Source of the DNA: Marchantia polymorpha subsp. ruderalis
Lineage: Eukaryota; Streptophyta; Marchantiopsida; Marchantiales; Marchantiaceae
Direction of reading: 5' to 3'
Length of the DNA: 64,000 nucleotides
Assembly (NCBI GenBank): GCA_037833965.1
Contig: AP031351.1
Location: 30,392,501-30,456,500 of the forward strand
The notes below the pieces were generated by a model. That model ran no database searches. It had not been told where the DNA came from and saw only the letters and a program-made list of their open reading frames with translations. Both the position numbers and the translations under genes were made by a program. Positions 33,651-58,082 of the stretch are shown one piece after another. Each line of letters begins with the position of its first letter. Within the stretch, counting starts at the first letter, position 1.

Positions 33651-36600
33651 AAACAAAAATGAAGCAGGGGACGAAGGGTCTGACAATCATTACTCTTCAG
33701 GAGCCCAAGAACGAAAGTTGGAAATAAATCTTATCGAATCACTCCATGAGAGATAAATTTTTCGGGGCACATGTTTATATATATAAGTGAGTACTATAAC
33801 CGGGGAAAAACTCGCATTCACATCTATTAAGTGGTGCAGAAGTAACTCCCACTGTTTTTGTTCGCAAATGTCTCAATTCCCGAGCAGGACTAGTATTGGC
33901 CGAAGCAAACAACTGCTGAAAACGTAATTGAAGACATCATACCCAAAAAAACACTAGGAACACAAAAACAAATTGGGGATCTTTCAAAGTAATAATGCAT
34001 TTCGACCAGCATTAATGGCAACTTTAGGTTTCAAGATCTTCCTTGAGGTTCCAACATAAGGTTATACGTCCCAGATATTCTTTATAGTAAATACTCTTTA
34101 CTCCTAATATTGTGGTTTCACTTCTCTCTTTAGACCAGATCCGCTTTTGTTATGAAAAGAATTTTACTACAAGTCCCCTTACCTTAACATGACAATCTGG
34201 ATAATATCAAATGTATTGGTTACATTGGATGCATTCATTTTTTCACTAATATAAAGTTTACTTAAGTAGTCATTTCAACATCATTACTTAACATCATTTC
34301 ATAATATAGTTATTCATTTTATAGGATTCATTTTGATGTTTACCATAAACATGAAATCTTTGTTAGTAATAACTCAAGTTGGAAGGTAATCTCAGTTTAG
34401 GAATTTCTGCTCGGACTACATAGGAAGCCAAGACAAAGCTTGCCCCAAAAATTGTTTTTAAGGTTTTTCAGTAAAACATGATGTTCCCGTGAATTAGGCA
34501 GAAGTAAATTATGTAATTGTCGGCATTGTGTCTGCGTGCATCTATTGTATGTGTTCTCGGTTTTTTCTCATGATTTTCTATGATTTTCTTTGTGTTTTTT
34601 TGTCAATGCAGTCAATATCCTTCATATTTTGCATTGCAGTCTTGCTACCCACAGAAATATTAATACATTAAATTATATATATATCCAACTAAACTAGTGA
34701 TTACAATGCTCTACATAGAATCATAACTAGAAACTTCACATTATTTGATGTATTTTACCTTGTAACTTACTTTTATGTGTAGATAATTTCATCTAGATTA
34801 TTCAAGTTGTATAGACAAAATTTCATACCAAATCTATTAATTTAAAACCACAAATATGATGTATAAATGGAATATTAATAAATCATTCATATATATATAT
34901 ATCCATACATTGTGATAAACTTTAAGTTTTTATAATATGATATTCTTTGGACTTCAAACATTAGTTTTCTGCGACTGTTTACTTTTGTTTTAGTTTATTC
35001 GTAGTTAATTTATCAATTTTGCTTCTTCTCTAATATTGAATAAATTTTTTCCAAAAATCAGAAAATGATTTTTTTCATAATAATTTTCAAAATGATATTT
35101 GAATGTAATCATGTATTGCCTTTTGCAAAAAAAATTCTCAATGTGATTCATTCAATTGATAAAAACAACAAGTCCATAATCATTCATGCAAAAAAATAAA
35201 TTCCAATAGTTTTTTTGATTTTTTTAAAATAATATTATTTAAATATACAAAGTCTATCTCTGAATTCACTTAGAATGTAATCTGAAAAAATTTTATAAGA
35301 TTTTTTGATTTAAAACATAGTATAAAGCTAAACATATAAATAAATTTTATATTGGAATTAAAATCTAGTATTAATTAAATCAAAATAAATTATAAATAAA
35401 TATTGAATAAATAAATTTTGTAAGATTTTATAACATGAAATTAAATTGGAATTTTAAAAATAATTTATTTTAAATTTAAAATTATTATTTTAATTAAAAA
35501 ATATATAATGTATTAATTAAATAATTAAATCGACACTTTTATTTTATAAAGTACATAATTATAATTTTCGTATATCTGGATATGTTTATACATAGTCAAA
35601 ATATTTTAAGATTACCACTTACATGAAAATGAATAATTTCAAATATCATTATTAAATTATTTTTCTTAATAATAAAATTCCTTTCATTTACTTTTTAAAA
35701 ACATTTTTACACTCAGAAATTACATTATTTCTCAATATTTTCGATACATAAATTTTTTGTAATTTAAATAAATTTAAATGTTAAAAAACTTAATATTTTA
35801 TATGAAAAATATGTAATGATAAATTGTAAAGACGAAATTTTATTGAATTCATATTATATTCCAAAATATTCAAGTGAAACATAAATTATTTATTTAAAAC
35901 ATTTTATCATACATTTCTTATAAGAATCTTAAAATTTTTATAAAAAATTATACAAATAATTGTGTTTTAATTTTAGTTTTAAATTGTAATAAATTGAAAG
36001 AAACTTGATCAGAACTTTTTCATTGCAATGAAAACCTGAACTAATACTCAGCGCTTTGAAAATGAAAATAAACACAAATACTCAGAATCCAAGTTGTGCA
36101 TTAAAAAAAATATGTTTTCATTCTATAGTGATCTGATATATGTTTATTAATTTTTAAAAATAACATTTTTTTCAAAAAATATTTTCTAATAAATAATTTT
36201 TTCGGTCAATGAAATTTTCTAAGATATGTACTATATGTTTGAATCTTGATCTAGACATCATTGATATATATATATATATATATGTTTTAAATGTTTGAAA
36301 CAATTATACCATCTCACTGAAAGAAAAGAATCGAACCATATAACGTTGAAAAGAATAAAATATTTCAACATGTCAACAAGTCAAACTCTCAAATATAACA
36401 TATTAAACATAACAAATAAATTATAGACTTGGGATTTTATTTTAATAAAAAAGATTTATTTAATTTTTTTTTAAACATTGAACACATGAAATATTATATC
36501 TTTGCATTACGTGCATGAAAATTTACTATTCTTAAACATACAAACAAAACTATTTGAAATGATTTTATATAGTAAATAAACTTATAATCAATCTTGCTGA

Positions 36601-39059
36601 AATTGCGAAAAGTAGAATGACATCTTTTGATAATATCATGAACAAAAGATTGCTGTGAACTGGTTTATTTCAGAAAACCATGTATAACTTTTAAGAAAAT
36701 ATAAAAAGAACTAGATTTCGTTTTTAAAATACAATAATTTCATTTGCACAATTTGTTGAGCTTTCAAATCACAATACATAAATGTAATATAATTTTTATA
36801 ATTCAATATACCGATTGATATTATATTTTGAATTTCTTAAATTTCTACAAAAATTTCATGTTTATTGTATAACTGTATACTAATAATTTAATTTGAATGC
36901 AATATTATTTGTTAAGATGAAAATTTAAATTATCTCTTAAATGTACTCTTATTGAATTTTAATACAAAATAATTCAAATTTCTTAAATTAATTTATAATA
37001 TATATATAACATTATTTTATATGCAAGTCAAAATTAGTTGTATATGTTAATTTTTCTCTTCAATCTATATAAACAATATGATGAGATCAATACGATAAAC
37101 AATTTATAAGTTCAAAATGTTTTTGAGGGTTGTCATTAATATCTTTGGTGATTTAGAAACTAAAAAATAACATGCTATAAAATTTTCAATATTAGTAATT
37201 AAATACCTTTAAAAAAACTATAAAAATATAATAAAAAATATTTATTTGACTGAATTTTACTAAGATGTTGAACCAACAAGATATGAGGTCTAAAATGACA
37301 AAATATATGAAAGCGAAATCACAACTTTAAGATGAAAATGATGTTTTAAGAAATTAGGATTTTTTTTATTCTAAAAGAATTTTTATAGAAAGAAACATAA
37401 TGCTTCACATCAAATATTATAAACAAACTACTAGCTGCAATTTATTCATTTTTCCTAATTAAAAAATATTTGGAAATATATAAATAAATATAGATTTATA
37501 TTTATATTTATATATAACTCATGGTACCACTAGGTATTTTATGTATTTGATGAGGCTTGAGGATGAATAATTCACTGCTCCACCTTACGTATAATCAAGA
37601 TGATAAGTTTGGTTTTGTTTATAAAGTGTTTATCTAAATTGACTTATTTGCAAGTACATGAGATGTCTTTACATCATTAAAGTCTGATATTCAAGTTTTA
37701 TTTTTATAAAATCTAGAGTAAAAATACTGAAATTTTCCAATTCAAACCATTTGTTGGAAATCAAAATTGCATATTATTTTATATAAATTCCCATCAAGTG
37801 AATTACAGATATCAAAGTTTCAGATTTAAAACTTTCATATTTCAAATATAAATATTTAATCATATAAAATCAAATATTGATTTGATTTGTTAGTTCAAAA
37901 TATTCAAAATTAATCCACATAGTTTTAGATTGTCAAAAAAATGTGAAAATTTTACAACAAAGATTTTGCATTATACAGTCATGTTGAATATTATTTTCTG
38001 CAAAATTGAATACTGAAGTGAAGGTAATGGAATATTGGTAATAAAAAATAGGAATTAAGATCTATATAGACTGTTTTGTATCAAATTTTATTTTTTAATT
38101 TTAATGTTTGAATATTTTAGTAAAAATATTTAGGCTAAATGAATTTTGTAACATGATATCTTCATGTGATTTATAAATAATAATATTGAGAATCTAATTT
38201 TAGCTGAATTCATCAAGTGATTTAGGTGTATTTTTCAAAAATTGTTTGAAAATTGTATTTTTTAATAAATTTTTTCTAAAATTTACATTTCATATGTCAA
38301 TATCAAAAGAAATAATAAGCATGTGTACAAATGTACTAAAATATTCTTTCTTTTATAATTTTAAATCAAAGCCTTATTTATTTGATATTTGAAATGTAAA
38401 AGATTAATATATATTTAAAAAGTTCATATGGAATATATGAATAATTTTTATATTTATTATATAATAAATGAATTTTTAATCTTTTAAAATGATTTTTTTA
38501 TTTTTTATATAGAGATATTTTTTTATTCAAGATACATATATATTATTTTATTTTATTTTTTGGCATTTTCTATTATGATAAGTGTTATATTGATTTACAA
38601 AATCAATTTCCTTGTTATAAATTTTTATAATTAATTGTAAATATACATGCAGAAACTTAATATATTTAATATAACAGTTTTTTTTATTTGCAAAAAGAAA
38701 TTCAGAAAAATATATGAGATTTTTTGTGTGATTCATTCAGATTACATTAGATTTATGAATTTTGAAATTTTCTATGCAATTGATTTCTTGTGTTTCAAGA
38801 TTTCTTTTGTATGATTGGCTAGGATCATTTATACAAAAAGTTGTAAATATTTGAAATGTGTATTGATTTTGATTCATGAGAGTATATCATGTTAAGTAAA
38901 ATAACTCTTTTATAATAGATTTTAAGGTATGATCAAATGTTGGTGTGGAAAATTTGTTTATTGATTATTAAAAATTTGATGCATAATTTATATATTAACT
39001 TACATGTGTTACATGAAAAGGAATGATATTTTCAGATATAATATAATAGCCATGTTTCA

Positions 39060-39400
39060 ACACACAATTTTGCGCTTTCTCTCTCCCTCCTGAAAAGTAA
39101 CATGAACACACAACGCGACGAAATCCGGGATCCCGCACACAGAAACAAAATCCCTAAACCTTAAATCCTCACATGAGGCGGAACGCCCGCATCTAACGAC
39201 ATTCTTAGCACGATGATAGCCCAACGTCCGCATATGACGTCCAGACGTATATAATAGACACGCACAAACACATTGAATAAGTATGATAAATCCATGGAGT
39301 TTATGTTTATGTAACACTTGAGGTTTTACAAAAAATCTAAAAATTGTCATCAAGAGTTTTTGTGAGCTTCTGTGTAGACTGGTAGGATTAGGGTGTAAGT
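39060..39400. other. GC-richer islet inside the AT-rich block
   Basis: About 340 bp with many CpGs and a TATATAATAG motif at about 39,248-39,257, sharply different from its flanks. No ORF has a recognisable domain. It may be a younger LTR fragment; no terminal TG/CA pair could be fixed. Confidence 0.3.
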
Positions 39401-40704
39401 AGTTAATATTCAACTAAATTCAAATCCTAATAGAGCTAATATGAAATATCAAACTACCTAACTTGATTTCTAACAACTTTACTTTCAACTCATATCATAA
39501 GTAAAATATCTCATAAAATGTATAATTAATCTAAAAGATGTTTCATAAAGAGACATGCCATAAATCTATATGAAATTAAAGCTAACTAAAATTAAATCCT
39601 AGCCAAAACATGACAAGCTAAAAAAAAATTGTATATAGAGTTTAAAAAAATTTTAGTTGATTTTACAACTACTCTTCATGCAACACTTGCAAATAAGCAA
39701 ACTTTAGCTAATTGTTTTCAAATAATTTCAATCAATGCATCAATTTTATCAGTTTATCGTCGAATTTCACTTGTTCAATATTCTTATGATAAATTGTAAT
39801 TATAATAAATTGATGTGATGTCAATATGTTTCACTATTGCGTCCATTATTTGATGTGTAGCATGATGTGATGCGCTTTGAATATCACAATAAGGATTGAT
39901 AATCTTTTATCCAATCCCATCTTAATGACAAGTCAATTCAACCAAATGGCTTTCTTTGCTTTCGTTTGCTTGTGCTACATACGTAGGCTCTATTATGAAC
40001 TAAGTTATACATTTATACAAATTAGAATTTTTTTAAATGCTTTCAACATCAAATGCAAACACATATCAAGTTGTAAATTTTTTCCTGTTCAAATCTTGTA
40101 CATAGTCATCATCAACTTAGAATTGCAAGAATGTGACATCAAATATATCATCAAAAAAATATATAATCTTTGATACTCTTGAATTATCATTTCATTACTT
40201 CACAATGCAATTTTTATTTTTATTTGACATGAATATGCTCATCTCTAAATAGATGAAGTAATATTAATTTTAGTGCATATCGTCAAATACATGAGACTGA
40301 TCACTACTTTATCATAAAAAATTGATAACATTTCTTTTTTCAATCAAATTGATTAAACATTAATAAAGTGTGATGACAAAACTTTCTTTAGTTGTTGTGT
40401 GAAAAATGAATTTGACATAGGTCCGAATTTAAGATGATTTTTGATTGAAAGATAAAAATAAATTAGAAGTAGTGAGACAATAAGACTAAGAAATTACCAA
40501 AAGAATATTAGAATGAAGCACTAGACAATTTTCATCCTGTTCTTGATTGAGTGGTTGTAGATAAGTTACAAAAATTAGACGGATGTGCCGCAGATGAAAG
40601 TATACCAAATATCGGTCATATCCAAACCGTGCCGTAGTCCTAACAATCATTCAGCCAAAAGCAGTTAGAAGTAAGAGTAAATTAGATTTTCTAGATAATC
40701 TATA

Positions 40705-41060
40705 GCAATTAACAATGAGGCTTAGTTTCATCAAGCTATCAATTCAAAAGTTAGGGAATGACAATAGTAATACTAGTAGTCGGTCTTATAAGATTCGGAT
40801 TTTTAGTGACATGGGATCCAGATTTCTAGTATGTCATTCACACCTTGGTTGCAGATATTTTGGACAAGGTTATTTAGATTACTAATACTTTAACAATAAA
40901 GCTCAGTTGCACCCAACTTTAATCCCAAAGTTAGACATCAAACTTATGGGATTCAAACAAATTTTGATATGGTATCCCGAATTTTAGTATTTAGTTGACA
41001 CCTTGGCTGCAAATCTTTTGGATAAGATTAGTTGGTTCATTAGTATTTAAACGGTTCTTG
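40705..41060. repeat. Diverged two-unit tandem repeat, about 170-190 bp per unit
   Basis: Blocks such as CACCTTGGTTGCAGAT and CACCTTGGCTGCAAAT, each followed by TTTTGGA(C/T)AAG, recur in the same order about 170-190 bp apart along with flanking similarity. Clearly related but well diverged. Confidence 0.6.
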
Positions 41061-41502: not shown

Positions 41503-41507
41503 GGAAT
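41503..41507. repeat. Target-site duplication, left copy (GGAAT)
   Basis: GGAAT directly precedes the outer LTR boundary and is repeated at 58,078-58,082. Five bp is the usual Ty3/gypsy integration footprint. Confidence 0.92.
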
Positions 41508-41611
41508 TGTAATAACCCACTAAAGGCTAAAACTGCAATATAGTGGTAGAAAGGTCGAACCCACAGGGACAGAGGAACACACAGGGTACAAAGTGTCACG
41601 TTTTAACAGAC

Positions 41612-42425
41612 TATTGAGGAGTTTGAATTCTCAGGCAACTGTCACTCCCAGAAATACTGCAAGTGTCCACTCGGAGCGCACTCGGAGGTCGCACAGTGCA
41701 GCGTAACACACACACACACACACACCTGAAACTACAGAAACACAACTCAGAGATCCGTTAGGACCTCTACTTCAAGATTTCAGGGGGAAAGTCTCTCGCG
41801 AGCACACTCGGCAAAGCTGCGGGCAGTGACTTCCAACTCCGGCTTTTACAACACTTCCACTAGCTTGCTGCTAGTGTAGGAAACCCGGTTTGGACTGCCT
41901 ACTTCGGATCGAAGTCACTCCTACGCGGTGAACAACACTCTCAACTCACAAAACGCGCAGAGAACACAGGTTCGCACTGAAGGACTCACTGTGAAACATT
42001 CCAGTAACACAACAACAGTCTATTGAAGAGTTTGAATTCTCAGGCACTTGTCATTCCCAGAAATACTACAGGGGTTACCCTCAAGGCACCTGCTGCAGCG
42101 TAACCTGAATTTACAACCAAGGCTTACACGAAGTAGTAAAACTTCACTTTGGCATTCAGGGGAAAAATCCCAAAGGAGTACAATCAGAAAGGAACACTCG
42201 AAGGTGTAGGGGCGAAACTGTTCAAGTATCTAACTAGTCACTGGCTCTGAGCATCGGCAGTCACCCGCAGGTGTAGATCCGAACTACTCAAGTCTCTAAC
42301 CAATGGACTAGCTCTGAACATTCGGCCGAAGGCCTTCAGCTACAAAATGCGGAACGCTAAGTTGTAACTCCTCCTGCGTGGTGACAGAACTCAAGGACAC
42401 AAACACGCAAAGGAAATGGGTTCCT
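41612..42425 (-). repeat. Diverged tandem duplication of about 400 bp inside the LTR (R-U5 part)
   Basis: Two units begin ACAGACTATTGAGGAGTTTG (about 41,612) and ACAGTCTATTGAAGAGTTTG (about 42,017). They share order and spacing of blocks such as GAATTCTCAGGCA, CCCAGAAATACT and GGGGAAA. The same occurs at 52,795-53,608 in the other LTR. The first unit includes an (AC)n run at about 41,706-41,724. Confidence 0.75.
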
Positions 42426-42474
42426 GATCTATACTTCTGAGGTTGGGAAAGAACCCCAGGCAAAACGCCTGGAA

Positions 42475-42486
42475 CTATTTTATACC
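42475..42486 (-). promoter_or_regulatory. TATA box in the 3' LTR (GGTATAAAATAG)
   Basis: A canonical plant TATA element on the - strand, 35 bp past the stop codon of the LTR ORF and about 970 bp before the LTR end. A 6-bp-stem inverted repeat (CCAGGC/GCCTGG, 42,456-42,472) sits between it and the expected start site. Confidence 0.6.
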
Positions 42487-42520
42487 TTCTAAATCCTAAC
42501 TAACACTACACTGCACTACG

Positions 42521-45500
42521 CTACACGCCTGCACGGAACCACGCTACACTACACTCCGCGGAACCTGTACTACGCCTCCTACGCGGCCGACTGCCGCGCA
42601 CTAACTCTCTACCCTGCCACTCTTCCGCTCGACTGCGCAGTCCCAACCGCTGCAACGCCGCGGACACCTCCCCCTCGAGGGCGGACATGGTATCCTGTGC
42701 CTTCGACAGAAAGGCCTCGAGCTTCTTCGCTACCTTCCGCCGACTCCTACTGTCGCCTGACAACAACCCGGCTGCGCGCAATTCAAACTCACGCAGTGTG
42801 AGTTTCTCCTGCGCCTTCACTTCCCAGTGGGCGTAGCCCTTGAGACAGTGGGCGACTCGCCTCGCCGTCTCCACCTTCGTGCGATCCGCCTCCTTCCTGC
42901 GATCCTCTTCAATCGTCACTAATTGCGATTCGGCTTCAGCACGTTGCGCCCTCAATTCGCCACACTCTGACTGCAGACTGCGGATTAATTCTTCATCCGC
43001 CTGCCGTGCGAGCTGACATTGTTCCAACAACCGCGTCTGTCGCACGAGCTCCTCTGACAAAATCCGATTCTGGGCCTGCTCAAAGTCGAGTGCTTCCTTG
43101 ACCTTCACCTGCTCCTTGGTGAGCTCGCCCAGTTTCTCATCCTTCATCTTCTCGGAGTGCTTGTAGAATTTCTGATTAAGCTTGTACTGTCCCCACAAGC
43201 ACTCATGCTTCTCCTTCAAGTCTCTCAACTCCTGGTCCACTCTAGCTAATAGCTTGCTAGTGTGGACTTTAGTGCGAGTCCTCCTGCGCACTAACTCGAT
43301 GTAAGATCCCGGCTGGAGTGGGTCGGCGTATTTATCGACCTTGCGATCCAAGTACCGCAGCAACGGAATCACCTGCTCAGAGAGCGCCGCCGCCGGCGCT
43401 CCAACAATTTCCTCCTCCTCCTCCTCGGTGTCTTCTGCTCCTGACATTTCTTCCGTGGAGCCTCCGTCGTCATCATCCGAGTGGAGAATTTCAGTCGCCA
43501 TTGAATGCGTCGGCGACTGCCCCGAGTGGGGCTGCACGTCCTCGACGTGTGCTGCCTGCGAAGGCACGGCTGCGGCCTCGCTGCTCGTCGCCAAAATGTC
43601 TAAGGCGGAAGGCGAATGTACCCGCGCGGCATCCCCGTCGCTTACTTGTTGATTGCCTCCCGCATTCTCTCTGTCGCCGTCGTCCGTCGCCGAAGGCGAT
43701 CGAGCGGAGGGTGGCTGCGCGGGGTTGGATTGCGCATCGCGCATCGAGATGTCGTCCCGCGGACAGTCACTCCGCTCTTCCGTCTGCTGCTCCCTCGATC
43801 GGTCCGTGGGGGCTGTGCCCGGCCCGTGCGCAGGCGCATTTGCCGGCGCCTTGTCCGCCGCAGGCGTAGCGCCGCGGACATCTATCGCCGAAGGCGACAT
43901 GGCCGGGGGCCGCACGCCCGATGTTCCTCGGCCTATAGGCCCTACCGCCGAAGGCGCATCTATCGGCGGACTTCCCGCCGATGGTGCGGCCTCCGCACGC
44001 TCTCTGCTCGTATACCCTCGGCTCGAAGGCCCTGGCGCCGAAGGCGCGAATTGCGGCGCGTGGTGCGCCGGAGGGTCTGGCCCCGAGGGCCGGTGTCTCG
44101 TAGGCGGTTCTTCCGCCGGCTCCTTCCCCTTCCTACGTTGGAACGGGGGTGATTCTTGCCTGTGCACAGGCGGCACGTGCGGAGGTGTTCGGTGCACAGG
44201 TGACCTGTGCACAGGCGACCTGTGCACAGGCGAGCGCCTGTGCACAGGCGGACTGCTCCTTCCCACGCGTAAGCGTAGATCCACGTCCACTTGTGTTCGC
44301 CGGTCCGCGGAGGCTCGTCCGTCCGCGGAGGTTCGCCTGTGCGCAAACGGAACCTCTGTCCGCATCGCACGTGGTAACTCCGGAGGCCCTTGGCCCGTAG
44401 GCGGCCTCTCTCCCGACGAGGTTGCAGCGTGGCCCGTCGCTCCTGCGGTCGTCCGCGCTTCCTCTCGCCTCTCCGGCGACGCACTTCCTATCTCCGTCGC
44501 AATCGTCGCCGTGTCTGCACTGTCAGCTGGCAACACCAGTCTGCGTGCCTTCTGCTTCGGCCGGCTGTATGGCTCGCACAGCGGCCGCGGTCGAATGGGA
44601 GCAGAGAGTTCTTGATGCTGCTCCTCTTCGGACTCTTCCCTCCATCGCCGCTTCCGCGGCACTCGCGCTGCAGGGGTGTGTCTCCCTTCGTCTCTCCGTC
44701 TTGATGGGGTAGAAGTCGGGGACTCCTCTGCGTCAGTGTCGACCTCGTTCTCCCGCACATACTTCCCGGGATGGTCGATGGACAATGGCGGAAAATGTTC
44801 AAGCTCCGCCGCTGTCAAACAATTTCGCTGTCGATAAAAATTGATGAGGAAAGGAGAAAGATGGTTTAGAGTTCCCCCCTTCTCCTCAAACGCGTGCTGT
44901 CGCATCACCCTGTGCAGGATGCTCGCCCAGTGAATTGGAGTTCCCTCGATGACGCACTCCACAAAAGAGACCTGCCACAATGTGATGTAGCAGGCGCGGT
45001 GCGGCTGCAGTAATTGCATCAGCGCCGCGGACAAAGTCCGGCGAAATCGATCCTTGTAATCACGGGTCCTGTACCCATTCTTGGTAGACCTCCCGGTCTT
45101 GAACAGCTCCACAAATTGCGCCTCTTCTTGCTTGGTCACCTTGATGCTCTCACTGTCGAAAAGGAGATGCCCTGGCATGCCAGCACATCTTCCCAACGCC
45201 TGCGCCCAATCTTGGACTGTCCACCGGTCAACATGCGGACGCAATCCGCGCGAGGGTGGTCCCTGTGGCTCTAGCCACTCGCGCACCATATTCGCGCAGA
45301 TGTAATTCCATCCCCATAGCAAGAAATCGAGCTTTCTTGCTATCAAGCGCTCTTCGAAAGCGCGCAGCCCGTTCTGCGGCAGGCGAAGTGGCACCATCCG
45401 CAATCTGCTCGGTCTCGCCATTGCGTTCCTGGGGTTCGCTCGCCCGCTCATTCTACTTCCGCACTGTCCGCGTTTCTTTCTCTCTCGGCAAACTCTAATC

Positions 45501-45673
45501 GCTCTCAATTCCAAATCACGCGTACTCACTTCTCCCTCAATCAGCAAGAAATCTCCTGTGTGACGACGTCGAGAATGGTCCGCAGCCAGCAGATGGATGC
45601 GCGCAGCGCGCACAAGAGATTGGAATCGCGAATTCAAGAATGGGACGCTCTCCGCCGCCCGGTCGAAGGTCAT
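42521..45673 (-). CDS. LTR-encoded 1,050-aa protein of unknown function (3' LTR copy)
   Basis: Uninterrupted ATG-TAG frame lying wholly inside the LTR, on the gag-pol strand. Function not recognised. Basic N-terminus, then a helical, Trp-rich globular-looking region (about residues 100-320, with LDFLLWGWNYICANMVREWL, VDRWTVQDWAQALGRC, ACYITLWQVSFVECVIEG). A long disordered Pro/Arg/Ser region includes a VHRSP repeat (about 473-505). An acidic Asp/Glu run follows (about 731-754), then a long coiled coil (about 795-925, ELRDLKEKHECLWGQYKLNQ onward) and an Arg-rich tail. No signal peptide or clear membrane helix, so an envelope role is not supported by what can be seen. It resembles hypothetical plant-transposon-associated proteins I recall from liverwort proteomes. 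Identical to the other LTR copy. Starts 1.26 kb after the pol stop. Confidence 0.7.
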   Translation of the reverse strand: MTFDRAAESVPFLNSRFQSLVRAARIHLLAADHSRRRHTGDFLLIEGEVSTRDLELRAIRVCRERKKRGQCGSRMSGRANPRNAMARPSRLRMVPLRLPQNGLRAFEERLIARKLDFLLWGWNYICANMVREWLEPQGPPSRGLRPHVDRWTVQDWAQALGRCAGMPGHLLFDSESIKVTKQEEAQFVELFKTGRSTKNGYRTRDYKDRFRRTLSAALMQLLQPHRACYITLWQVSFVECVIEGTPIHWASILHRVMRQHAFEEKGGTLNHLSPFLINFYRQRNCLTAAELEHFPPLSIDHPGKYVRENEVDTDAEESPTSTPSRRRDEGRHTPAARVPRKRRWREESEEEQHQELSAPIRPRPLCEPYSRPKQKARRLVLPADSADTATIATEIGSASPERREEARTTAGATGHAATSSGERPPTGQGPPELPRAMRTEVPFAHRRTSADGRASADRRTQVDVDLRLRVGRSSPPVHRRSPVHRSPVHRSPVHRTPPHVPPVHRQESPPFQRRKGKEPAEEPPTRHRPSGPDPPAHHAPQFAPSAPGPSSRGYTSRERAEAAPSAGSPPIDAPSAVGPIGRGTSGVRPPAMSPSAIDVRGATPAADKAPANAPAHGPGTAPTDRSREQQTEERSDCPRDDISMRDAQSNPAQPPSARSPSATDDGDRENAGGNQQVSDGDAARVHSPSALDILATSSEAAAVPSQAAHVEDVQPHSGQSPTHSMATEILHSDDDDGGSTEEMSGAEDTEEEEEEIVGAPAAALSEQVIPLLRYLDRKVDKYADPLQPGSYIELVRRRTRTKVHTSKLLARVDQELRDLKEKHECLWGQYKLNQKFYKHSEKMKDEKLGELTKEQVKVKEALDFEQAQNRILSEELVRQTRLLEQCQLARQADEELIRSLQSECGELRAQRAEAESQLVTIEEDRRKEADRTKVETARRVAHCLKGYAHWEVKAQEKLTLREFELRAAGLLSGDSRSRRKVAKKLEAFLSKAQDTMSALEGEVSAALQRLGLRSRAEEWQGRELVRGSRPRRRRSTGSAECSVAWFRAGV
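44155..44255. repeat. Array of the 12-bp palindrome CCTGTGCACAGG
   Basis: Exact copies at 44159-44170, 44204-44215, 44219-44230 and 44237-44248. Two more lie outside the ORF at 46020-46031 and 46313-46324. The other LTR has the same six, shifted by 11,183. Inside the ORF they encode the VHRSP repeat. Confidence 0.9.
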
Positions 45674-45839
45674 GGTCGGCTCTTGGTCGTGAAGAACGTC
45701 TCACTTGATGGCCGCGCCGGCTGTACGCTGGAACGGTCTTCGCTCTCACGCGCGGCTTCACGCTCCGCCGTCGTCGATTAAACTCTCACGCTCGAATTGG
45801 CGTATTTGAACTCCGCGAGTGTGTCGCCCTGCGGACATG

Positions 45840-46680
45840 GGGGCGTAGCGCCGAAGGCGAGTTTTCCGCCTTGCGCGGTACACTTGTTCGTACCGCCCCT
45901 CGGCCAATCTCCTTCTGCCTTGACGCGTGTGTCCGCATATCGGACAAAAATTCAACTCCTGCCTGTGCGCAGGCAGGAGCCTCGGCGGATCCTCCGCCGG
46001 TGCGGAACTTGAACATCCTCCTGTGCACAGGCGAATTCCGTCCGCGGCGCTGCGCTGGCGCGGAAGGCGTTGACCGTGGTCAGCCGTCTCCGTCCAGTCT
46101 GTCCGTTCCTTGTCTCTCCGTCGGCGCTTCCGCCGCCGCAACTCCGTCCGTCCAAGAGCGCATCCACCCGTCGCTTCCGCACGGTCCGTACCGATGGGAT
46201 TACTCTGGCGGCCGTACGTGGCGCCGCGCTGGCGCGGAAGGCGCCGTACACTTTCTACCTCACAAGGCGCATTTCTAGGGCCCAAGGCGGATTTTCCGCC
46301 GACGCCGAAGTGCCTGTGCACAGGCGTTCGCCTGTGCGTAGGCGGACTTCGCGCCTTCCCTAACCCTACTTTGCCTGTGCTCAGGCGAACGCCTTCGTCC
46401 GCGCATAGGACAAAATTTGATTCCCCCTTCCGCGTAGGCGGAATTCGCGCCGGTGGCGAAATCCTTCCGCCGAAGGCGACCGCCTCCGTTTCTTCCAGTA
46501 GCGATAACTCCCTAAGTCCTCGTCCGTTCCAAGCGTTCTTGGGCTCGTTAGAATCAGCGCGTCGAGCTCTTTCCAACGAGACCCTAACTTGGTCAAGGCG
46601 CCCGAGGGTTTACCTAATTACGGGGGGTTTCCCTACAGCCGCGGACGCAACCTCCGAAGGCGGATTTTGCGCCTTGCGCC
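45840..46680. repeat. Dense cluster of short GC-rich inverted repeats in U3
   Basis: Many mini-hairpins with CGCC...GGCG or TCCGCC...GGCGGA stems and 3-5 nt loops (for example GCGCCGAAGGCG, GGCGGATCCTCCGCC, GGCGGATTTTCCGCC), spaced a few tens of bp apart. The same is found at 57,023-57,863 in the other LTR. Related CGCCGAAGGCG motifs also occur within the ORF. Confidence 0.75.
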
Positions 46681-46896
46681 GTAGAGATCCTAACTGCGGA
46701 ACTCGCAGGGAGGGTGGTGCCTGTGCTTGCTGCGGCACCCCAAATCCCAGATTCTATAAGATCCCTCGAGAATCCCCGCGATCTTCCGGATTCACTCTGT
46801 TTTGATGTACCGAAGGCTATTTACAATGTTGCCAGGGTACAGTTTTCCAAAAATGTTTTAATTTCCTCAAAATTGCCAAAAGTGGGGTACCACATG

Positions 46897-46907
46897 CCCC
46901 CCTCCTC
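46897..46907 (-). other. Polypurine tract (GAGGAGGGGGG)
   Basis: Eleven-nt all-purine run on the element strand, 2 nt from the 3' LTR start and about 24 nt past the pol stop codon. It is the plus-strand primer for reverse transcription. Confidence 0.9.
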
Positions 46908-46931
46908 AATTGTGAGCGCCCACGCGAACAC

Positions 46932-49772
46932 TCACATGTGGTATTTCTTCAACCGCCACCCGTTGACTCGGGTGCCTAACAAATCGCCGGCCAGGTCCGC
47001 AAGTTGGATGGATCCATTCGGGAAGACTTCGACAACCCTGTAAGGTCCCATCCACCTTAGGTGCAGTTTGCCTGGGAATCTGGCATGCCTGCTGTCGTAG
47101 AGCAATGCCAAATCACCCGCCTGCAGGAGTACCGGTTTGATCTTTTTATCGTATCTCTCCTTTCGGCGGAGCTGGATTTTCCTGGTGCGATCTTCGGCGT
47201 CTCGTCTCCTCTCATCCAGCAGCATGACCTCCTGTAACCTGTAGAGCTGACTCTCCTCTGCGCCCATCCTCTGCAAATCCATCGTTCGATGGGTGGGTAC
47301 TTCAAATTCGATTGGGAGGATCGGGTGTTGCCCATACACCAGAAAGTATGGTGTCTGTTTGGTCGTGATCTTCTCAGCTGTGCGGTACGCCCATAGAGCG
47401 GCCGCTAGCTTCGTATCCCAGTCGTGAGCGTGATTCACCGTGACCTTGAGTAGTATTTTACACAGCAGACCATTGGACTTCTCCGTCAGTCCATTTGCCT
47501 TGGGATTGTATGGAGTAGTCTTCCGGTGCTTGATGTGGAAATACCGTGTCAGGTCTTCGATGATCTGATTCAGAAAATGCGTGCCCCGGTCGCTGACTAG
47601 CTCTAAGGGACATCCGTAGCGTGTGATGATTGACTCAAACAAGAATGCTGCCACTGTGGCAGCATCATCCTTTCTGGTGGCTCTGGCCTCTACCATTTTG
47701 GTGGCGTAGTCCGTTGCTACCAGAATGTAGCGCCTTCGTGTACTTCTAGTCACTGGTTGTATCGGCCCTACAAAGTCAATACCCCACTTTTCGAAAGGTG
47801 CTAGAGGCATGATGGGAGTCAGGGGCCAGCGTGTTGTAGGCGTCGGTCTCCCCGTCCTCTGGCAACTGTCGCACTTGCGGATGTAATCGAAAACATCCTT
47901 AAACATGGTCGGCCACCAATATCCCGCATTTAGGATCTTTGTGACCGTGTTCCTGGTGGCATAGTGTCCACCCGCCTCCTCAGTATGCATCGCACTCACT
48001 ATTCTTGGTACCTCTGATTCCTCCAGGCATCTGCATAAGCGCTCATCTGCCATCTTCTTAAACAAAACCCCCTGCTGGAGTTGGTACGGGCCTGCCTTAT
48101 GAATAAAGACAGTTCGCTGTTCCAAATCCATGCCTTCGGGACACTGGAGGGTTAGCAGATATCGATACAGGTCGGCATAGCGGGACTCATGTCCTGCAGA
48201 CAACTGAAATAACTCTTCATCTGGAAAATCGTCCACCAATTCCTCCTCTGTCGGCTGGGTCCATAATCGGGACAAGTAATCCGCATTTTCGTGGTGCACC
48301 CCTTTCCTGGTCTGGACTGTGTAGGTGAACTCTTGTAGTAACAACACCCACCTGGCGATGCGACCGGATAGGTCGGCTTTCTTGACTAGGTGTTGCAATG
48401 CGTAGTGGTCCACATGGAACACAAACTCGTAGCAGATTAGGTAGTGACGGAACTTTTTACAGGAGTACACCATCCCCAACGCTTCTCTCTCCGTCGTGGT
48501 GTACTTCCGCTCTGCTAGAGACAGCTGTCGGCTCGCGAAGTAGATCGGGTAGTCCTTTTTGTTGTCATCCTTTTGACTCAGTACTACACCGATGGCGAAT
48601 GCCGATGTGTCAACGTAAACATGGAATGGTCGATTCCAGTCTGGACTCCTTAGTACGGGAGCAGTCGTGAGTTTTGCTTTCAGAGCTTCAAATGCTGTCT
48701 GCTGGTTCGCACCCCAAGCATAAGGCTCGTCCTTCTTCAACAACTTGGTCAGGTCCGCCGCTAGTATTGCATACATGTGTATGAATCTTCGGTAATAGCC
48801 CACATGACCCAGGAATGCTCGCAGCTCCCTTAGATTCGTGGGTGGCTCAAGCTCGAGTATAACCTTGACCTTCTCGACGTCCACCGCAATGCCGTCTGCC
48901 GAGACTCGATGACCCAACAAGATCCCACTAGTCATAAAGAAAAAGCACTTCTCGGGATGCAGTGATAAACTGCTCTCCCTGCATTTATCGAAGGTCTGCT
49001 TCAAGTGACTTAGGTGTTCAGACCGCTTCCCAAAGACACAGAAGTCATCTATGAATATTTCCAGGAACTTCCTCAGTTGTTCCTGAAAGATATTGGTCAT
49101 CATCCGTTGAAAGGTGGCAGGCGCGTTGCACAGACCGAAGGGCATCTTGTGGTATGCGTAAGTTCCCCAGTCGGTTGTGAACGTAGTTTTATCCTTGTCC
49201 TGTTCACGGATAGACACCTGATTGTAACCTGAGAACCCATCCAGGAAGCTATAACATTCATGTCCTGCGACATGGTCTAGAATGGCATCCGTGAATGGTA
49301 GCGGGTGATGATCCTTGCGTGTTGCTGCATTCAACTTCCGGAAATCCTGACACACTCGTATCTTACCCGTCAACTTCTTGGGTACGATAACAATCGGCGA
49401 CACCCACTCACTGCTGAGCACCGGGTAAATAATACCAGCGCTCAAGTACTTATCTATCTCCTCTTTCACTAGCAAGGAGTACTTTGGGTTGAGGCGATAC
49501 TGGCGCTGTCGTATGGGTACCGAGTCGTCCAGTAAATCGATACGGTGTTCCCCATACCGTGCAGGTATCCCCTTCATGTCTTCGATCTTCCAGGCGAAGA
49601 CGTCGACATAATGACTAAGGAATGCCTGTACTTTCCTTAGCTCGTCTCCTCTCACTGCGCTTGATACCTTCAAGCACTTGCCGGGACTGAGTTGTACTTC
49701 GCGACAGTCACTAGGGTCGACAATGCCCTCGGTGTGACTCGTCTCACTCCTTCCCAGTCCCACAGTTAATTG
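46932..49772 (-). CDS. pol: Pol: reverse transcriptase, RNase H, integrase (translated by readthrough of the gag stop)
   Basis: This frame has no ATG at its start. It is the in-frame continuation of gag after the UAG at 49775-49773, and the first possible starter (GTG, 49763) is three codons further on. Numbering from that GTG, RT spans about residues 95-290 with catalytic Asp in FLDGFSGY (175) and FIDD (237-240) and the MPFGLCNAPATFQRM box. RNase H (about 378-500) has VDTSAFAIG, TTTEREALG and HVDHYAL; the first motif departs from the usual DAS. The integrase zinc finger is H593, H600, C631, C634. Its catalytic core is D663 (WGIDF), D725 (LVSDRGTHF) and E761, with the 35-residue spacing kept. 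No chromodomain follows; it ends WRLKKYHM, TGA 46934-46932. All catalytic residues are present, so it looks functional. Confidence 0.93.
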   Translation of the reverse strand, partial: QLTVGLGRSETSHTEGIVDPSDCREVQLSPGKCLKVSSAVRGDELRKVQAFLSHYVDVFAWKIEDMKGIPARYGEHRIDLLDDSVPIRQRQYRLNPKYSLLVKEEIDKYLSAGIIYPVLSSEWVSPIVIVPKKLTGKIRVCQDFRKLNAATRKDHHPLPFTDAILDHVAGHECYSFLDGFSGYNQVSIREQDKDKTTFTTDWGTYAYHKMPFGLCNAPATFQRMMTNIFQEQLRKFLEIFIDDFCVFGKRSEHLSHLKQTFDKCRESSLSLHPEKCFFFMTSGILLGHRVSADGIAVDVEKVKVILELEPPTNLRELRAFLGHVGYYRRFIHMYAILAADLTKLLKKDEPYAWGANQQTAFEALKAKLTTAPVLRSPDWNRPFHVYVDTSAFAIGVVLSQKDDNKKDYPIYFASRQLSLAERKYTTTEREALGMVYSCKKFRHYLICYEFVFHVDHYALQHLVKKADLSGRIARWVLLLQEFTYTVQTRKGVHHENADYLSRLWTQPTEEELVDDFPDEELFQLSAGHESRYADLYRYLLTLQCPEGMDLEQRTVFIHKAGPYQLQQGVLFKKMADERLCRCLEESEVPRIVSAMHTEEAGGHYATRNTVTKILNAGYWWPTMFKDVFDYIRKCDSCQRTGRPTPTTRWPLTPIMPLAPFEKWGIDFVGPIQPVTRSTRRRYILVATDYATKMVEARATRKDDAATVAAFLFESIITRYGCPLELVSDRGTHFLNQIIEDLTRYFHIKHRKTTPYNPKANGLTEKSNGLLCKILLKVTVNHAHDWDTKLAAALWAYRTAEKITTKQTPYFLVYGQHPILPIEFEVPTHRTMDLQRMGAEESQLYRLQEVMLLDERRRDAEDRTRKIQLRRKERYDKKIKPVLLQAGDLALLYDSRHARFPGKLHLRWMGPYRVVEVFPNGSIQLADLAGDLLGTRVNGWRLKKYHM

Positions 49773-49775
49773 CTA
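49764..49775 (-). promoter_or_regulatory. Translational recoding site: UAG-CAA-UUA readthrough stop between gag-pro and pol
   Basis: On the element strand the gag end reads GAA GAC GAA TAG CAA TTA ACT. TAG followed by CAATTA fits the UAG-CARYYA context, and two adenines precede the stop, as in the tobamovirus leaky stop. gag and pol are in the same frame, so low-level readthrough gives Gag-Pro-Pol without frameshifting. The sequence match is direct; efficiency is inferred. Confidence 0.85.
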
Positions 49776-52604
49776 TTCGTCTTCCGGCTGAATAGCTTCC
49801 GGCTCTTCTTCTTCTTCCACCGAACAGCAGGCAACGAATCCCACGAAGTAATCGGATTCGGTACCACTGGAATCCGATCGCGCGGTCGACTCACTGTCCT
49901 CGCCCGATGTGTAACCTGCACTTGTCGATGGGGTCTCTCCTTCGTGCCTGACCCTATTCCAGGGTACCGTAATGGTTTTGGTCGGTTCCGAAGGGTGAGG
50001 AAACTTAAGGCGATGTCTTCGCCAATCACATCTGACTTGTGCACCATATAGCCATGGTCGCCCGAGCAGAACGTCATAGCCCTGCTTCATCATCGGTTGA
50101 AGGATGATATACGTCAACCGAAAGTCCGCACCCCCGATGGTTGTCTTGACATTGCGCAGCATACCTGCAGGCATTCTCCGCGTCTGATCCGCCAATCTCA
50201 ACACACGCTTCGAGGGTTCGTATTGACTGTACCCCAAGGCCCTCGCTGTATCCTCCGTCATTATGTTGATTCCTGATCCAGAGTCGATTGGCACTCTGCG
50301 TACACAACACCCTGCGATCTCTACATCGATCTCGGGTGGCCCTTGGTCTTCGCTCTCCACTTGATATACTTGAGAGGATGTGGATGCGCGCGGCTTCCGC
50401 GGATGCCGTAGCGAGAGCATCAACATTCTCCGATACGTCTTATTGTCCTCCAAGAGCTGCTTGAACGTGATGTTCACTTTTCGACTCCCGAGATCTTCAA
50501 CCAAGTCATAGTGGGCGCGTTGGGTCGCCAGGGTCGGCGACGCTCTGCGAGGTTCCACGGCGGCTGCCAACTTCGCCCCAAGGGAGGATGTCAAGTCTGG
50601 CCGCGGTGGGTCCTTTTGCGTGCGGATCGCTTCCTGCAACAGGTTGGCTACCTCGTTGCGGATATCCGGAGCATAGTCACGTTTCAGTAGGCGCACTGGC
50701 TCGTCCTCGACTGCTGTCTGGGGGCGCACTGCTGGTGCCTCCCGCGTAGCCGAAGTCTTCCGAGCAGGTCGCGAGTCGGACTTGCTGGATGTCTTCTCCT
50801 TTCCTTTTCCCGTCCGGTCGGCGGTTCTCCGTTCGTGCTTGCGAGTGTCACGCTCTTGCTCCTTGGATTTCTTGGAGCTACGAGTTTCGACCCGTGCGCA
50901 CATAACCTCTTCAGCCGGCCATTCTTCGTCTTCGCCATCCCCGTCTGAACCTACTTCGACCTGGTTAACTTGCACGTCCTCCTTGGCAGGAGTGTTCACA
51001 AATCGTACCACTGGCCGAGGGACTGGTGGCTGATCACACTCTGGCGCAGTGTGCCCGACCTTCTTGCAATTACTACATGTCGGAGCATAATCGTTTCGCC
51101 TTTTTGGATGGGGACACTGCGGTGAGAAGTGCCCAACTTCCCCGCAATTATAACAAGCTCGCGGTGGCGGTGGGTCAAACGTCCCTGGAGGTGCTCTCCG
51201 CCTCACAGGTACCGTAGTGGCCCGATCCACCGGAATATATCGTGGGACTTGCATTGCTGAAACTGCAGGAGGGGTAGGAACCGACTGGACGGCGTAGGCT
51301 GTCTCTTCGCTAGCCTCTCCATAGTACTGAGGGTGCTCTCCATAGTACGGTTGCGCCCACTCTACTGCGTTGACTGGATATGACGGCCGGGTGGTAAGGC
51401 ACTCGGTGTTTGCATGTCCCACCGCCCCGCACGTAGTACACCATAAGTTCGCTCGCACTCTCCCGGGTGATTTTCTGCGATCATGCCCGCCTACCACTTG
51501 AACCTTGAGATCGGCGAAGTCCTTCACAAGGGTCTCCATCTTCGAAGCTATATCTCCCGGCGCTCTGTCCGTAGTCACTCGTCGGATGCCCTTTTTCTTC
51601 GCTGACCCATGCTTCTTCCTCTTCTTCTCCTCCTCCGACGATGAGGTTTCCTCTTCTTCGGATGAAGAACGGTTCTCGTCCGAAGACGATTCCTCCGATG
51701 ACGGAGTTGTACCTCTACGTCGTCTTCGCCCCCCCTTCGGTTTTCGTTCCTTCGACTCCCGTCTCTCTCTCCCTCTTCGGTTGAGAGTGGAAGTTTCGAA
51801 GGCTTCTGCCGATGCAATCACGTCCTCAATAGTGTCGCACTTGCTGCGTCGGCAAAAAGTCTCCATCTCCCGAGTTAAACCGGTCACGTACCAATCCACA
51901 GCTTGTTGTACCGAGAAAGGGGACCCTGGTCCTGTTTTCGGTATTCGGTCGAGGAGGTCCAGAAATCTCTCAGTGTAGTCACGCAGACTCTCCTTCTTCT
52001 CTCGCTGCAAATTACGTAACTTCGTCAAAACCCGGCTGTCGTAGCCGAGCTCGCGAAAGCGGCGAAGGAACTTCTCCTTCAGCTGGGCCCATGTTGTCAA
52101 CCCAGTCGGATCGATGCTCTCGTGATTATACCAACTCCTCGCTTTCTTCCGCAGAAGGCTTGGAAAGATCCTTAGTCGGTCGTCGTCTGCGATCTCGCGA
52201 TTGGCAATAGACACCGACTCGAACAACTTGATGTATGAATCTGCATCGTCGTCATCCCCACTCCCTTTGTACTTCGGGTAGGAATGTTTAGTAATCGGCT
52301 GAGGTAGCCGCACATTGGCTTGTCCGTCCGCCATCGGTGTGTCTGTCGACGGTCTTCGGGCGGTCGGTTCTCCTTCACTAGGCGGGTCCGTGCAAGGAAT
52401 ATCTAGTAGAACTGTAAGCACCAAGTTTGGTTCCGAGTCGTCGGGGGTAGGTTCCCCAAGGGCGTCGGCCGAACTAGGCTTAGGTACTCTTTTTGGTGTT
52501 TTCTTGTTTTGACGCCGTGTCTCTTCCACGGCCTTCTCTGAATCTCGTCGGAACTTGCGGACAGCTCTAGCACTTAGGTTGCTCCCGCCAGCCCCAGTCG
52601 ACAT
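49773..52604 (-). CDS. gag: Gag-protease polyprotein, 943 aa
   Basis: ATG at 52604 lies 46 nt downstream of the primer site; TAG at 49775-49773. The capsid-like retrotransposon gag domain spans about residues 110-275 (FLRRFRELGYD, LRDYTERFLDLLDRI). An Arg-rich and Ser/Glu-rich low-complexity linker follows (about 280-340). There are then three CCHC zinc knuckles: C389-C402 (CTTCGAVGHANTEC), C484-C497 (CYNCGEVGHFSPQC) and C510-C523 (CSNCKKVGHTAPEC). After a basic linker comes an aspartic-protease domain with active site IDSGSGINIM (D784-S-G) and LLGRPWL. The protease lies on the gag side of the stop, so it would be made in gag amounts, while RT and integrase need readthrough. Three knuckles are more than the one or two usual in plant Ty3 elements. 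No damage seen. Confidence 0.92.
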   Translation of the reverse strand: MSTGAGGSNLSARAVRKFRRDSEKAVEETRRQNKKTPKRVPKPSSADALGEPTPDDSEPNLVLTVLLDIPCTDPPSEGEPTARRPSTDTPMADGQANVRLPQPITKHSYPKYKGSGDDDDADSYIKLFESVSIANREIADDDRLRIFPSLLRKKARSWYNHESIDPTGLTTWAQLKEKFLRRFRELGYDSRVLTKLRNLQREKKESLRDYTERFLDLLDRIPKTGPGSPFSVQQAVDWYVTGLTREMETFCRRSKCDTIEDVIASAEAFETSTLNRRGRERRESKERKPKGGRRRRRGTTPSSEESSSDENRSSSEEEETSSSEEEKKRKKHGSAKKKGIRRVTTDRAPGDIASKMETLVKDFADLKVQVVGGHDRRKSPGRVRANLWCTTCGAVGHANTECLTTRPSYPVNAVEWAQPYYGEHPQYYGEASEETAYAVQSVPTPPAVSAMQVPRYIPVDRATTVPVRRRAPPGTFDPPPPRACYNCGEVGHFSPQCPHPKRRNDYAPTCSNCKKVGHTAPECDQPPVPRPVVRFVNTPAKEDVQVNQVEVGSDGDGEDEEWPAEEVMCARVETRSSKKSKEQERDTRKHERRTADRTGKGKEKTSSKSDSRPARKTSATREAPAVRPQTAVEDEPVRLLKRDYAPDIRNEVANLLQEAIRTQKDPPRPDLTSSLGAKLAAAVEPRRASPTLATQRAHYDLVEDLGSRKVNITFKQLLEDNKTYRRMLMLSLRHPRKPRASTSSQVYQVESEDQGPPEIDVEIAGCCVRRVPIDSGSGINIMTEDTARALGYSQYEPSKRVLRLADQTRRMPAGMLRNVKTTIGGADFRLTYIILQPMMKQGYDVLLGRPWLYGAQVRCDWRRHRLKFPHPSEPTKTITVPWNRVRHEGETPSTSAGYTSGEDSESTARSDSSGTESDYFVGFVACCSVEEEEEPEAIQPEDE

Positions 52605-52650
52605 TCACCGAGCATGACTGCTCGTAAAAACCCCGGTGTTGACGCAACTG

Positions 52651-52668
52651 TCCCCGGCAGCGGCGCCA
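52651..52668 (-). other. Primer-binding site, tRNA-Asp type
   Basis: TGGCGCCGCTGCCGGGGA on the - strand differs by one base from the TGGCGCCGTTGCCGGGGA complement of plant tRNA-Asp 3' ends used by Athila/Tat-type elements. It starts 22 bp inside the 5' LTR boundary. The preceding LTR end contains the GTGGGTTCGACC motif also typical of that branch. Confidence 0.88.
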
Positions 52669-53657
52669 AAAAGAAGTTGTCGGCTTCTTATGTAATAACC
52701 CACTAAAGGCTAAAACTGCAATATAGTGGTAGAAAGGTCGAACCCACAGGGACAGAGGAACACACAGGGTACAAAGTGTCACGTTTTAACAGACTATTGA
52801 GGAGTTTGAATTCTCAGGCAACTGTCACTCCCAGAAATACTGCAAGTGTCCACTCGGAGCGCACTCGGAGGTCGCACAGTGCAGCGTAACACACACACAC
52901 ACACACACCTGAAACTACAGAAACACAACTCAGAGATCCGTTAGGACCTCTACTTCAAGATTTCAGGGGGAAAGTCTCTCGCGAGCACACTCGGCAAAGC
53001 TGCGGGCAGTGACTTCCAACTCCGGCTTTTACAACACTTCCACTAGCTTGCTGCTAGTGTAGGAAACCCGGTTTGGACTGCCTACTTCGGATCGAAGTCA
53101 CTCCTACGCGGTGAACAACACTCTCAACTCACAAAACGCGCAGAGAACACAGGTTCGCACTGAAGGACTCACTGTGAAACATTCCAGTAACACAACAACA
53201 GTCTATTGAAGAGTTTGAATTCTCAGGCACTTGTCATTCCCAGAAATACTACAGGGGTTACCCTCAAGGCACCTGCTGCAGCGTAACCTGAATTTACAAC
53301 CAAGGCTTACACGAAGTAGTAAAACTTCACTTTGGCATTCAGGGGAAAAATCCCAAAGGAGTACAATCAGAAAGGAACACTCGAAGGTGTAGGGGCGAAA
53401 CTGTTCAAGTATCTAACTAGTCACTGGCTCTGAGCATCGGCAGTCACCCGCAGGTGTAGATCCGAACTACTCAAGTCTCTAACCAATGGACTAGCTCTGA
53501 ACATTCGGCCGAAGGCCTTCAGCTACAAAATGCGGAACGCTAAGTTGTAACTCCTCCTGCGTGGTGACAGAACTCAAGGACACAAACACGCAAAGGAAAT
53601 GGGTTCCTGATCTATACTTCTGAGGTTGGGAAAGAACCCCAGGCAAAACGCCTGGAA

Positions 53658-53669
53658 CTATTTTATACC
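53658..53669 (-). promoter_or_regulatory. TATA box of the 5' LTR, likely element promoter
   Basis: Same GGTATAAAATAG motif in the upstream LTR. If used, transcription starts near 53,630, making U3 about 4.4 kb and R-U5 about 0.94 kb. No competing TATA box as good was seen in the first part of the LTR, although TTATAGAA occurs near its beginning. Confidence 0.6.
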
Positions 53670-53703
53670 TTCTAAATCCTAACTAACACTACACTGCACT
53701 ACG

Positions 53704-58077: not shown

Positions 58078-58082
58078 GGAAT
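58078..58082. repeat. Target-site duplication, right copy (GGAAT)
   Basis: Matches 41,503-41,507 exactly and abuts the CA-end of the direct repeat on the + strand. Confidence 0.92.

Follow-up and report, generated by a model that had tools for sequence, protein, structure and literature searches.

A probable third gene in the U3 region of the long terminal repeats of a Marchantia Ty3/gypsy retrotransposon

Introduction

In mouse mammary tumor virus (MMTV), the gene sag lies behind pol and env and, being in U3, is present in both long terminal repeats (LTRs). The sag gene is an accessory open reading frame (ORF) in U3, a region that in MMTV also harbors a second promoter, as far as the available part of the source goes (PMC9412291). 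For plants, the relevant part of a review (PMC7264820) locates the extra ORFs of LTR retrotransposons internally, for the most part from the end of pol to the 3′ LTR. As to liverworts, Marchantia genomes have been reported, in the text available to us, to contain Tat elements lacking the additional RNase H (PMC10508981), and the corresponding portion of a liverwort genome paper gives 222 full-length LTR elements for the assembly of M. polymorpha subsp. ruderalis (PMC9985172). Here, a stretch of 64,000 nucleotides from M. polymorpha subsp. ruderalis (contig AP031351.1, positions 30,392,501 to 30,456,500 of the forward strand; referred to as the window, with positions counted from its first letter) was analyzed, which contains a complete Ty3/gypsy element of 16.6 kb (41508-58077, minus strand). 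LTRs are generally treated as regulatory, non-coding sequence; in this element they hold a gene of nearly 1,000 codons, which is under selection and common to diverged families. The reading preferred here, given a probability of roughly 0.77, is that this Ty3/gypsy retrotransposon is young and complete and that the U3 region of its LTR harbors a third gene.

The long terminal repeats and their open reading frame

The element is delimited by two LTRs of 5,387 bp each (3′ LTR, 41508-46894; 5′ LTR, 52691-58077; both on the minus strand), which are identical (0 mismatches in 5,387 positions) and whose similarity ceases abruptly at both ends. Read on the gag-pol strand, which is the minus strand of the window, the LTR starts with TGTGGTACCCC and ends with GGGTTATTACA, giving TG...CA termini, and the insertion is flanked by a 5-bp target site duplication (ATTCC on the minus strand, present as GGAAT at 41503-41507 and 58078-58082). 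A tRNA-Asp-like primer binding site (52650-52668, minus strand), which we take to be complementary to the 3′ end of tRNA-Asp, is found 22 nt from the 5′ LTR, and a polypurine tract (46895-46907, minus strand) adjoins the 3′ LTR, sitting within the 37 nt between the pol stop codon and the LTR. Paired TG/CA repeats, target duplication, primer site and polypurine tract, on which a first-pass annotation of the sequence had based the LTR boundaries, are all present at the same limits, in agreement with the assignment to Ty3/gypsy.

Wholly inside the LTR, and on the strand of gag and pol, lies a mechanical ORF of 1,050 codons (42521-45673, minus strand), which occurs in both repeats. The open run at this place comprises 1,059 codons; in 300 dinucleotide-shuffled versions of the LTR, with both strands considered, the longest run had a mean of 211 and a maximum of 386. 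The coding sequence most likely starts at Met85 and then covers 42521-45421 (minus strand, 966 codons), because variation in codons 1-84 is spread evenly over first, second and third positions and because relatives of the protein start there; dN/dS, given below, is higher for residues 1-84 than for the rest. In the family alignment, variable sites by codon position number 6/6/7 for residues 1-84 and 37/36/112 for residues 85-1050, and between families residues 1-90 are likewise flat (for example 35/41/35). Ten inspected relatives begin exactly at the equivalent of Met85 (P0009, P0010, P0011, P0013, P0016, P0017, P0027, P0032, P0041 and P0108, the last with 27% identity); P0005, P0008 and P0014 begin upstream yet retain a methionine at this position, P0020 has none there, and in the remaining relatives the region is missing or scrambled. 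In the 5′ LTR, the second, identical copy would accordingly occupy 53704-56604 (minus strand). The earlier description of 5.4-kb LTRs, each with a complete ORF, holds for the two identical repeats and the frame that they enclose; its start at codon 1 of 1,050 is probably to be replaced by Met85.

Selection on the gene

The ORF is under protein-level purifying selection, both within and between families. Copies were sought in a single genome, an assembly of 241 Mb in 9 contigs, and the ratio of non-synonymous to synonymous change (dN/dS) was counted by a simple method without transition weighting. For the family, 25 distinct copies remained after alignment to the reference columns, taken from 30 loci that were the best of 45 listed protein matches. 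They gave a dN/dS of 0.16 for the whole ORF and 0.144 for residues 85-1050, with 0.039 for residues 85-330, 0.233 for residues 331-750 and 0.133 for residues 751-1050. Residues 85-330 are thus constrained about as strongly as pol, for which a value of 0.040 was obtained from 12 distinct copies (13 sequences sampled: that of the window, 11 drawn from the 48 best-scoring protein matches, and a single stretch flanked by two LTR matches). Between families, ten pairs yielded 0.15-0.36 for residues 85-330 and 0.17-0.33 for residues 751-1035. Changes private to one copy (48 synonymous, 40 non-synonymous) are less constrained than shared ones (55 and 19, respectively), as expected if inserted copies decay.

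Since best-scoring copies are biased towards low dN, the between-family comparisons were added, together with a control on residues 1-84 and a sample drawn blindly with respect to the ORF. This sample took every tenth exact match to the junction of LTR end and primer site among the first 100 listed (positions 5 to 95), and consists of nine loci, on contigs C1-C3 only, the window itself (position 25) being excluded. Six of the nine LTRs carry a fully open ORF, with insertions and deletions only in multiples of three, and compared with the window copy these six gave 0.048 for residues 85-330, 0.339 for residues 331-750 and 0.137 for residues 751-1050. In the protein search, 44 of 13,834 first-look candidates were scored; 43 full-length matches were listed, 40 of them without a stop, and one further copy appeared as two overlapping pieces, in a listing ranked by score and hence biased to intact copies. 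The first-pass annotation had named a dN/dS near 1 across family copies, or frequent stops in otherwise intact young copies, as evidence against its reading; the value for residues 85-1050 is 0.144, and six of the nine blind-sample LTRs have an open frame.

Diverged relatives with the same layout

Five loci with diverged relatives of the gene were inspected, four of them with about 46-60% identity. At the P0004 locus (46%), the gene lies in a solo LTR with the target duplication AATAG; this LTR is interrupted by a younger insertion, counted as one of the five loci, which has suffered an internal deletion, is flanked by a separate duplication (AGTCA) and retains only parts of the ORF. L034 (60%) is a solo LTR of 5,215 bp with CGTTT on both sides, and L035 (58-59%) is a solo LTR with the duplication TTTCT/CTTCT, which contains one mismatch. 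Solo LTRs, for which the first-pass annotation had recommended a search, were found in these diverged families. Because these relatives also sit in LTRs, the layout appears older than the window family, and the location of the gene inside the LTR probably predates the divergence of these families. The gene model P0099 joins integrase sequence directly to the domain of the U3 gene, consistent with pol preceding the U3 gene in another family too. A relative at an internal position, outside an LTR, was not found among the few loci examined.

M. polymorpha gene models make up 4 of 4, 26 of 28 and, in the deepest protein search, 94 of 105 matches, the other 11 being unnamed contigs; the weakest match of this search had E = 1.8e-17, with nothing further up to E = 1. 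These searches rely on common five-residue words, and remote relatives may escape them. P0004 is itself an annotated protein of M. polymorpha subsp. ruderalis (AXG93_1200s1210), which matches the assembly at 98% over residues 81-710. Its counterpart (L031/L032) lies in a solo LTR. On the practical side, at least one solo LTR of this group has hence been annotated as a host gene, and the same may hold for other gene models among the 94 named matches.

Position of the gene within the LTR

TATAAA occurs just once in the window LTR (LTR position 4411), as part of the TATA box TATAAAA at 42478-42484 (minus strand), 36 nt past the stop codon; no TATAA occurs in the 1,221 nt upstream of the ORF. Because all of 30 copies have this sole TATAAA 35-36 nt past the stop codon, U3 is probably filled by the gene, which would end at the promoter. 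In the diverged loci, TATAAAG follows the stop codon after 36 nt (L034), 36 nt (L035) and 56 nt (L033); in the P0004 LTR it is found about 70 nt past the end of the ORF. The region downstream of the TATA box (41508-42454, minus strand), assigned to R-U5 from the position of that box, is the most conserved part of the LTR: from LTR position 4501 onward, 82-95% of positions per 150-nt block are identical between families, in contrast to 50-86% for the blocks of the gene (window family compared with L033-L035). This contrast hints at exchange between families or at strong constraint on R-U5. Upstream of the ORF, U3 contains repeated GC-rich palindromic words, CGCCTTCGGCG and GCCTGTGCACAGGC (45834-46494, minus strand).

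The predicted protein

The protein of about 966 amino acids comprises a conserved N-terminal domain, a proline-rich and acidic linker and a C-terminal segment that resembles a coiled coil; the acidic run and the coiled-coil-like C-terminus were seen by reading the sequence, without a coiled-coil program. Within the linker, the basic motifs PRKR[R/K]W and RPKQKAR are kept in the family alignment and look like nuclear signals. A stretch resembling a membrane span was not found in a hydropathy scan, the maximum 19-residue Kyte-Doolittle mean of 1.14 making such a span unlikely. The whole protein has no Pfam domain, no sequence relative in the PDB and no NCBIfam family above the cut-off. When 29 relatives were compared with Pfam, only 16 matches resulted, each confined to a single member, and none was to Athila or another plant transposon family. 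A resemblance of the N-terminal domain to PF20167 ("putative plant transposon protein") had been considered and was dropped, with 0 of 29 members matching; a search of the genome with PF20167 likewise gave no match and is uninformative, as the control was also unmatched.

gag, pol and genomic setting

In the internal region, the gag frame (49773-52604, minus strand) encodes 943 amino acids, with zinc knuckles and an aspartic-protease-like region, and ends in UAG; pol (46932-49772, minus strand) contains reverse transcriptase, RNase H and integrase. The order gag, protease, reverse transcriptase, RNase H, integrase is that of Ty3/gypsy, the protease matches remaining below Pfam's cut-offs. A second RNase H domain was not found by Pfam, which places a single RNase H region in pol (PF17919, PF17917), and there is no chromodomain in the integrase among the Pfam matches of P0003, as would be expected of the Athila/Tat clade. 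Between gag and pol, which are in the same frame, the stop codon stands in the context UAG-CAA-UUA (49767-49775, minus strand), suggestive of readthrough; UAG CAA UUA is the leaky-stop context known from tobamoviruses. The 30-nt gag-pol junction has 739 matches in the genome at three mismatches or fewer, the first places listed all being exact. At the other end of the internal region, the primer site does not adjoin the LTR; the 22-nt spacer contains a perfect 6-bp hairpin (52650-52690, minus strand), and this segment as a whole does not surpass shuffled sequences in folding (z -0.81). A joint match to LTR end, spacer and primer site occurs 1,234 times in the genome.

Motif counts give estimates of abundance, a motif not being equal to a whole gene. 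With two or three mismatches allowed, thresholds differing by pattern, and with 0 matches for each reversed-pattern control, the genome contains 3,730 matches to an N-domain motif, 3,343 to a C-domain motif, 6,420 LTR 3′ ends, 4,613 R-region motifs, 1,414 junctions of LTR and primer site and 1,219 junctions of polypurine tract and LTR. The two kinds of junction together (1,414 + 1,219) fall short of half the number of LTR ends, which makes it probable that many LTRs are solo or truncated.

In places, the primer-site junctions are evenly spaced, at 11,184 bp in G000:C2:31351081-31384681 and at 11,092 bp in G000:C3:20847403-20880727, which suggests tandem arrays sharing LTRs. Three blocks of near-equal junction spacing on G000:C1 (about 2.34-2.51, 2.74-2.91 and 3.10-3.26 Mb), the first two offset by about 406,369 bp, look like a large segmental duplication. 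The element of the window itself is embedded in very AT-rich DNA (15-32% GC at 34000-41000 and 58100-64000). Elsewhere in the window, a 202-nt unit is repeated three times (59774-60378), and another long ORF of 1,064 codons with a GTG start (23054-26248, minus strand) has no Pfam match.

Proposed mechanism and alternative explanations

If the gene resides in U3, transcription would begin just past the TATA box of the 5′ LTR and end in R of the 3′ LTR, so that the 3′ LTR would supply the expressed copy, which the genomic RNA would carry at its 3′ end. The gene could be translated either from the genomic RNA itself or from a subgenomic RNA produced by splicing, in broad analogy to MMTV sag. Reverse transcription would copy U3 into both LTRs, leaving two identical copies of the gene per insertion and one per solo LTR. 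The copy in the 5′ LTR, being upstream of the start site, is probably silent, and solo-LTR copies likewise, unless another promoter reads through them. As to the origin of the layout, the plus-strand priming tract may have moved to just behind pol, enclosing a formerly internal gene in U3; the first-pass annotation had proposed that a third gene in the order known from Athila was absorbed into U3. With low certainty, the protein can be regarded as an intracellular, probably nuclear accessory factor and not as an envelope protein. A wider proposal, to which we assign slightly less than an even chance, is that a liverwort retrotransposon lineage independently evolved a U3-resident accessory gene and has thereby spread thousands of copies of a selected, probably nuclear factor. 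Were this true, the factor could act in trans on the LTRs of the element itself, perhaps by countering silencing or by directing integration, and every solo LTR would stay a potential gene. The system also offers a natural test: the two copies of an insertion begin identical, such that their decay can be timed, and solo LTRs reveal whether the gene persists without the rest of the element.

Several observations weigh against a selected gene in U3. Residues 1-84, taken as a non-coding control, show a dN/dS of 0.57 within the family, of 0.55-1.02 over the ten between-family pairs and of 0.418 in the six open copies of the blind sample; the ratio is thus below 1 in all but one comparison, although codon positions vary equally there. 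The choice of best-scoring copies of ORF and pol biases dN/dS downward, which the blind sample answers in part. Within that sample, three of the nine LTRs have no intact ORF in the fetched stretch: L054 is rearranged and its aligned frame is broken by one stop, L053 has diverged and contains stops, and L048 shows only the C-terminal part, the stretches of L048 and L053 being possibly misplaced in part because an LTR of 5,387 bp was presumed. L033 (about 55% identity) has a proper LTR start but has lost its 3′ end. The LTR of the P0004 family has a TATAA at LTR position 71, upstream of the gene, and a second promoter is conceivable in that family. Homologues found by protein search are confined to Marchantia gene models and unnamed contigs, in the one genome searched. 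Finally, two AlphaFold models of the N-terminal domain are of low confidence (mean pLDDT 51.7 and 40.2); of the protein features that the first-pass annotation had listed, the acidic run and the coiled-coil-like C-terminus are visible, whereas the helical region is predicted at low confidence only.

Other explanations of the ORF have to be judged against the same data. It could be an Athila-type envelope-like gene that moved into U3; like the additional frame of Athila, it is a sense ORF that follows pol, but the absence of Athila or plant transposon Pfam matches in the 29 members and of any membrane-span-like stretch (hydropathy maximum 1.14) renders this unlikely. Alternatively, the ORF might be a 5′-leader gene ("ORF0") that lies in R or U5, is driven by a promoter in the first 1.2 kb of the LTR and forms the first translated frame of the genomic RNA. 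A U5 exceeding 4 kb would be unusual, and such a promoter is at odds with a window LTR that is free of TATAA in the 1,221 nt upstream and has its sole TATAAA 36 nt past the stop codon, as well as with TATA boxes past the stop codon in 30 of 30 copies and four relative loci. In favor of a leader gene one may cite the 1.2 kb of LTR that precedes the ORF, the TATAA at position 71 in the P0004 family, and the ORF0 ahead of gag in Retrosat2, RIRE3 and RIRE8, though the portion of the source available describes it as preceding the gag-pol ORF, outside the LTR (PMC3485330); on balance, this explanation is distinctly improbable.

An origin of the ORF by capture of a host gene, or its persistence as a passive passenger whose frame stays open owing to chance, GC content or recent spread, would be compatible with the GC-rich LTR, with the very young window copy and with the stops in many older listed relatives. 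It is difficult to reconcile with an open run far beyond the shuffles (1,059 versus at most 386 codons), with selection within and between families that weakens sharply before Met85, and with relative loci of which three have both LTR ends and one has the LTR start; furthermore, the 105 matches consist of 94 M. polymorpha gene models and 11 unnamed contigs, no systematic search having been made for a host paralogue outside repeats. We consider a captured or passenger frame very improbable. It is scarcely credible that the LTR was misassigned, the true LTR being shorter and the ORF an internal gene duplicated by recombination into a tandem array. Junctions evenly spaced at about 11.1-11.2 kb do indicate such arrays in places, yet target duplications, primer site and polypurine tract all converge on one set of TG/CA ends, and the solo LTRs of other families, with the same ends and their own target duplications, largely refute it.

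Comparison with known systems

The first-pass annotation had suggested a previously undescribed plant architecture. In the open-licence literature, as far as its texts were available, no report was found of ORFs in the LTRs of plant elements or of such an element in Marchantia, and a term search of the available text of the Retand paper (PMC11963269) gave no mention of ORFs in LTRs or of Marchantia; novelty may therefore apply to plants, while the general layout, a gene in U3, is known from retroviruses, namely from MMTV sag (PMC9412291). The rice elements Retrosat2, RIRE3 and RIRE8 resemble the present one in their long LTRs (about 3 kb or more) and in an extra ORF of unknown function; their ORF0 is described upstream of the gag-pol ORF and outside the LTR in the part of the paper at hand, and Retrosat2 was rejected as a precedent on this ground (PMC3485330). 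With the Tat elements of Marchantia, the element shares a single RNase H region in pol, as judged by Pfam, but no LTR gene is mentioned in the accessible text on those elements (PMC10508981). Athila and similar elements differ in that their extra ORF is internal, according to the relevant part of the review (PMC7264820), whereas here it lies inside both LTRs with only 37 nt between the pol stop codon and the LTR; in addition, no transmembrane segment was detected by hydropathy scan, and no common Pfam domain was found here.

MMTV differs in several respects. The protein described here, of about 966 amino acids, is a different one, no similarity having been sought beyond the general searches, and the element is a plant Ty3/gypsy retrotransposon with no envelope gene in its internal region and with thousands of motif matches in the genome. 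The second U3 promoter described for MMTV in the available part of the source (PMC9412291) has no visible equivalent in the window LTR. What is shared with sag/naf of this betaretrovirus is an ORF on the sense strand and wholly within the LTR, in the present element probably in U3. The Marchantia element would in this respect provide a plant parallel to the retroviral U3 genes, and makes a case for asking how plus-strand priming sites move.

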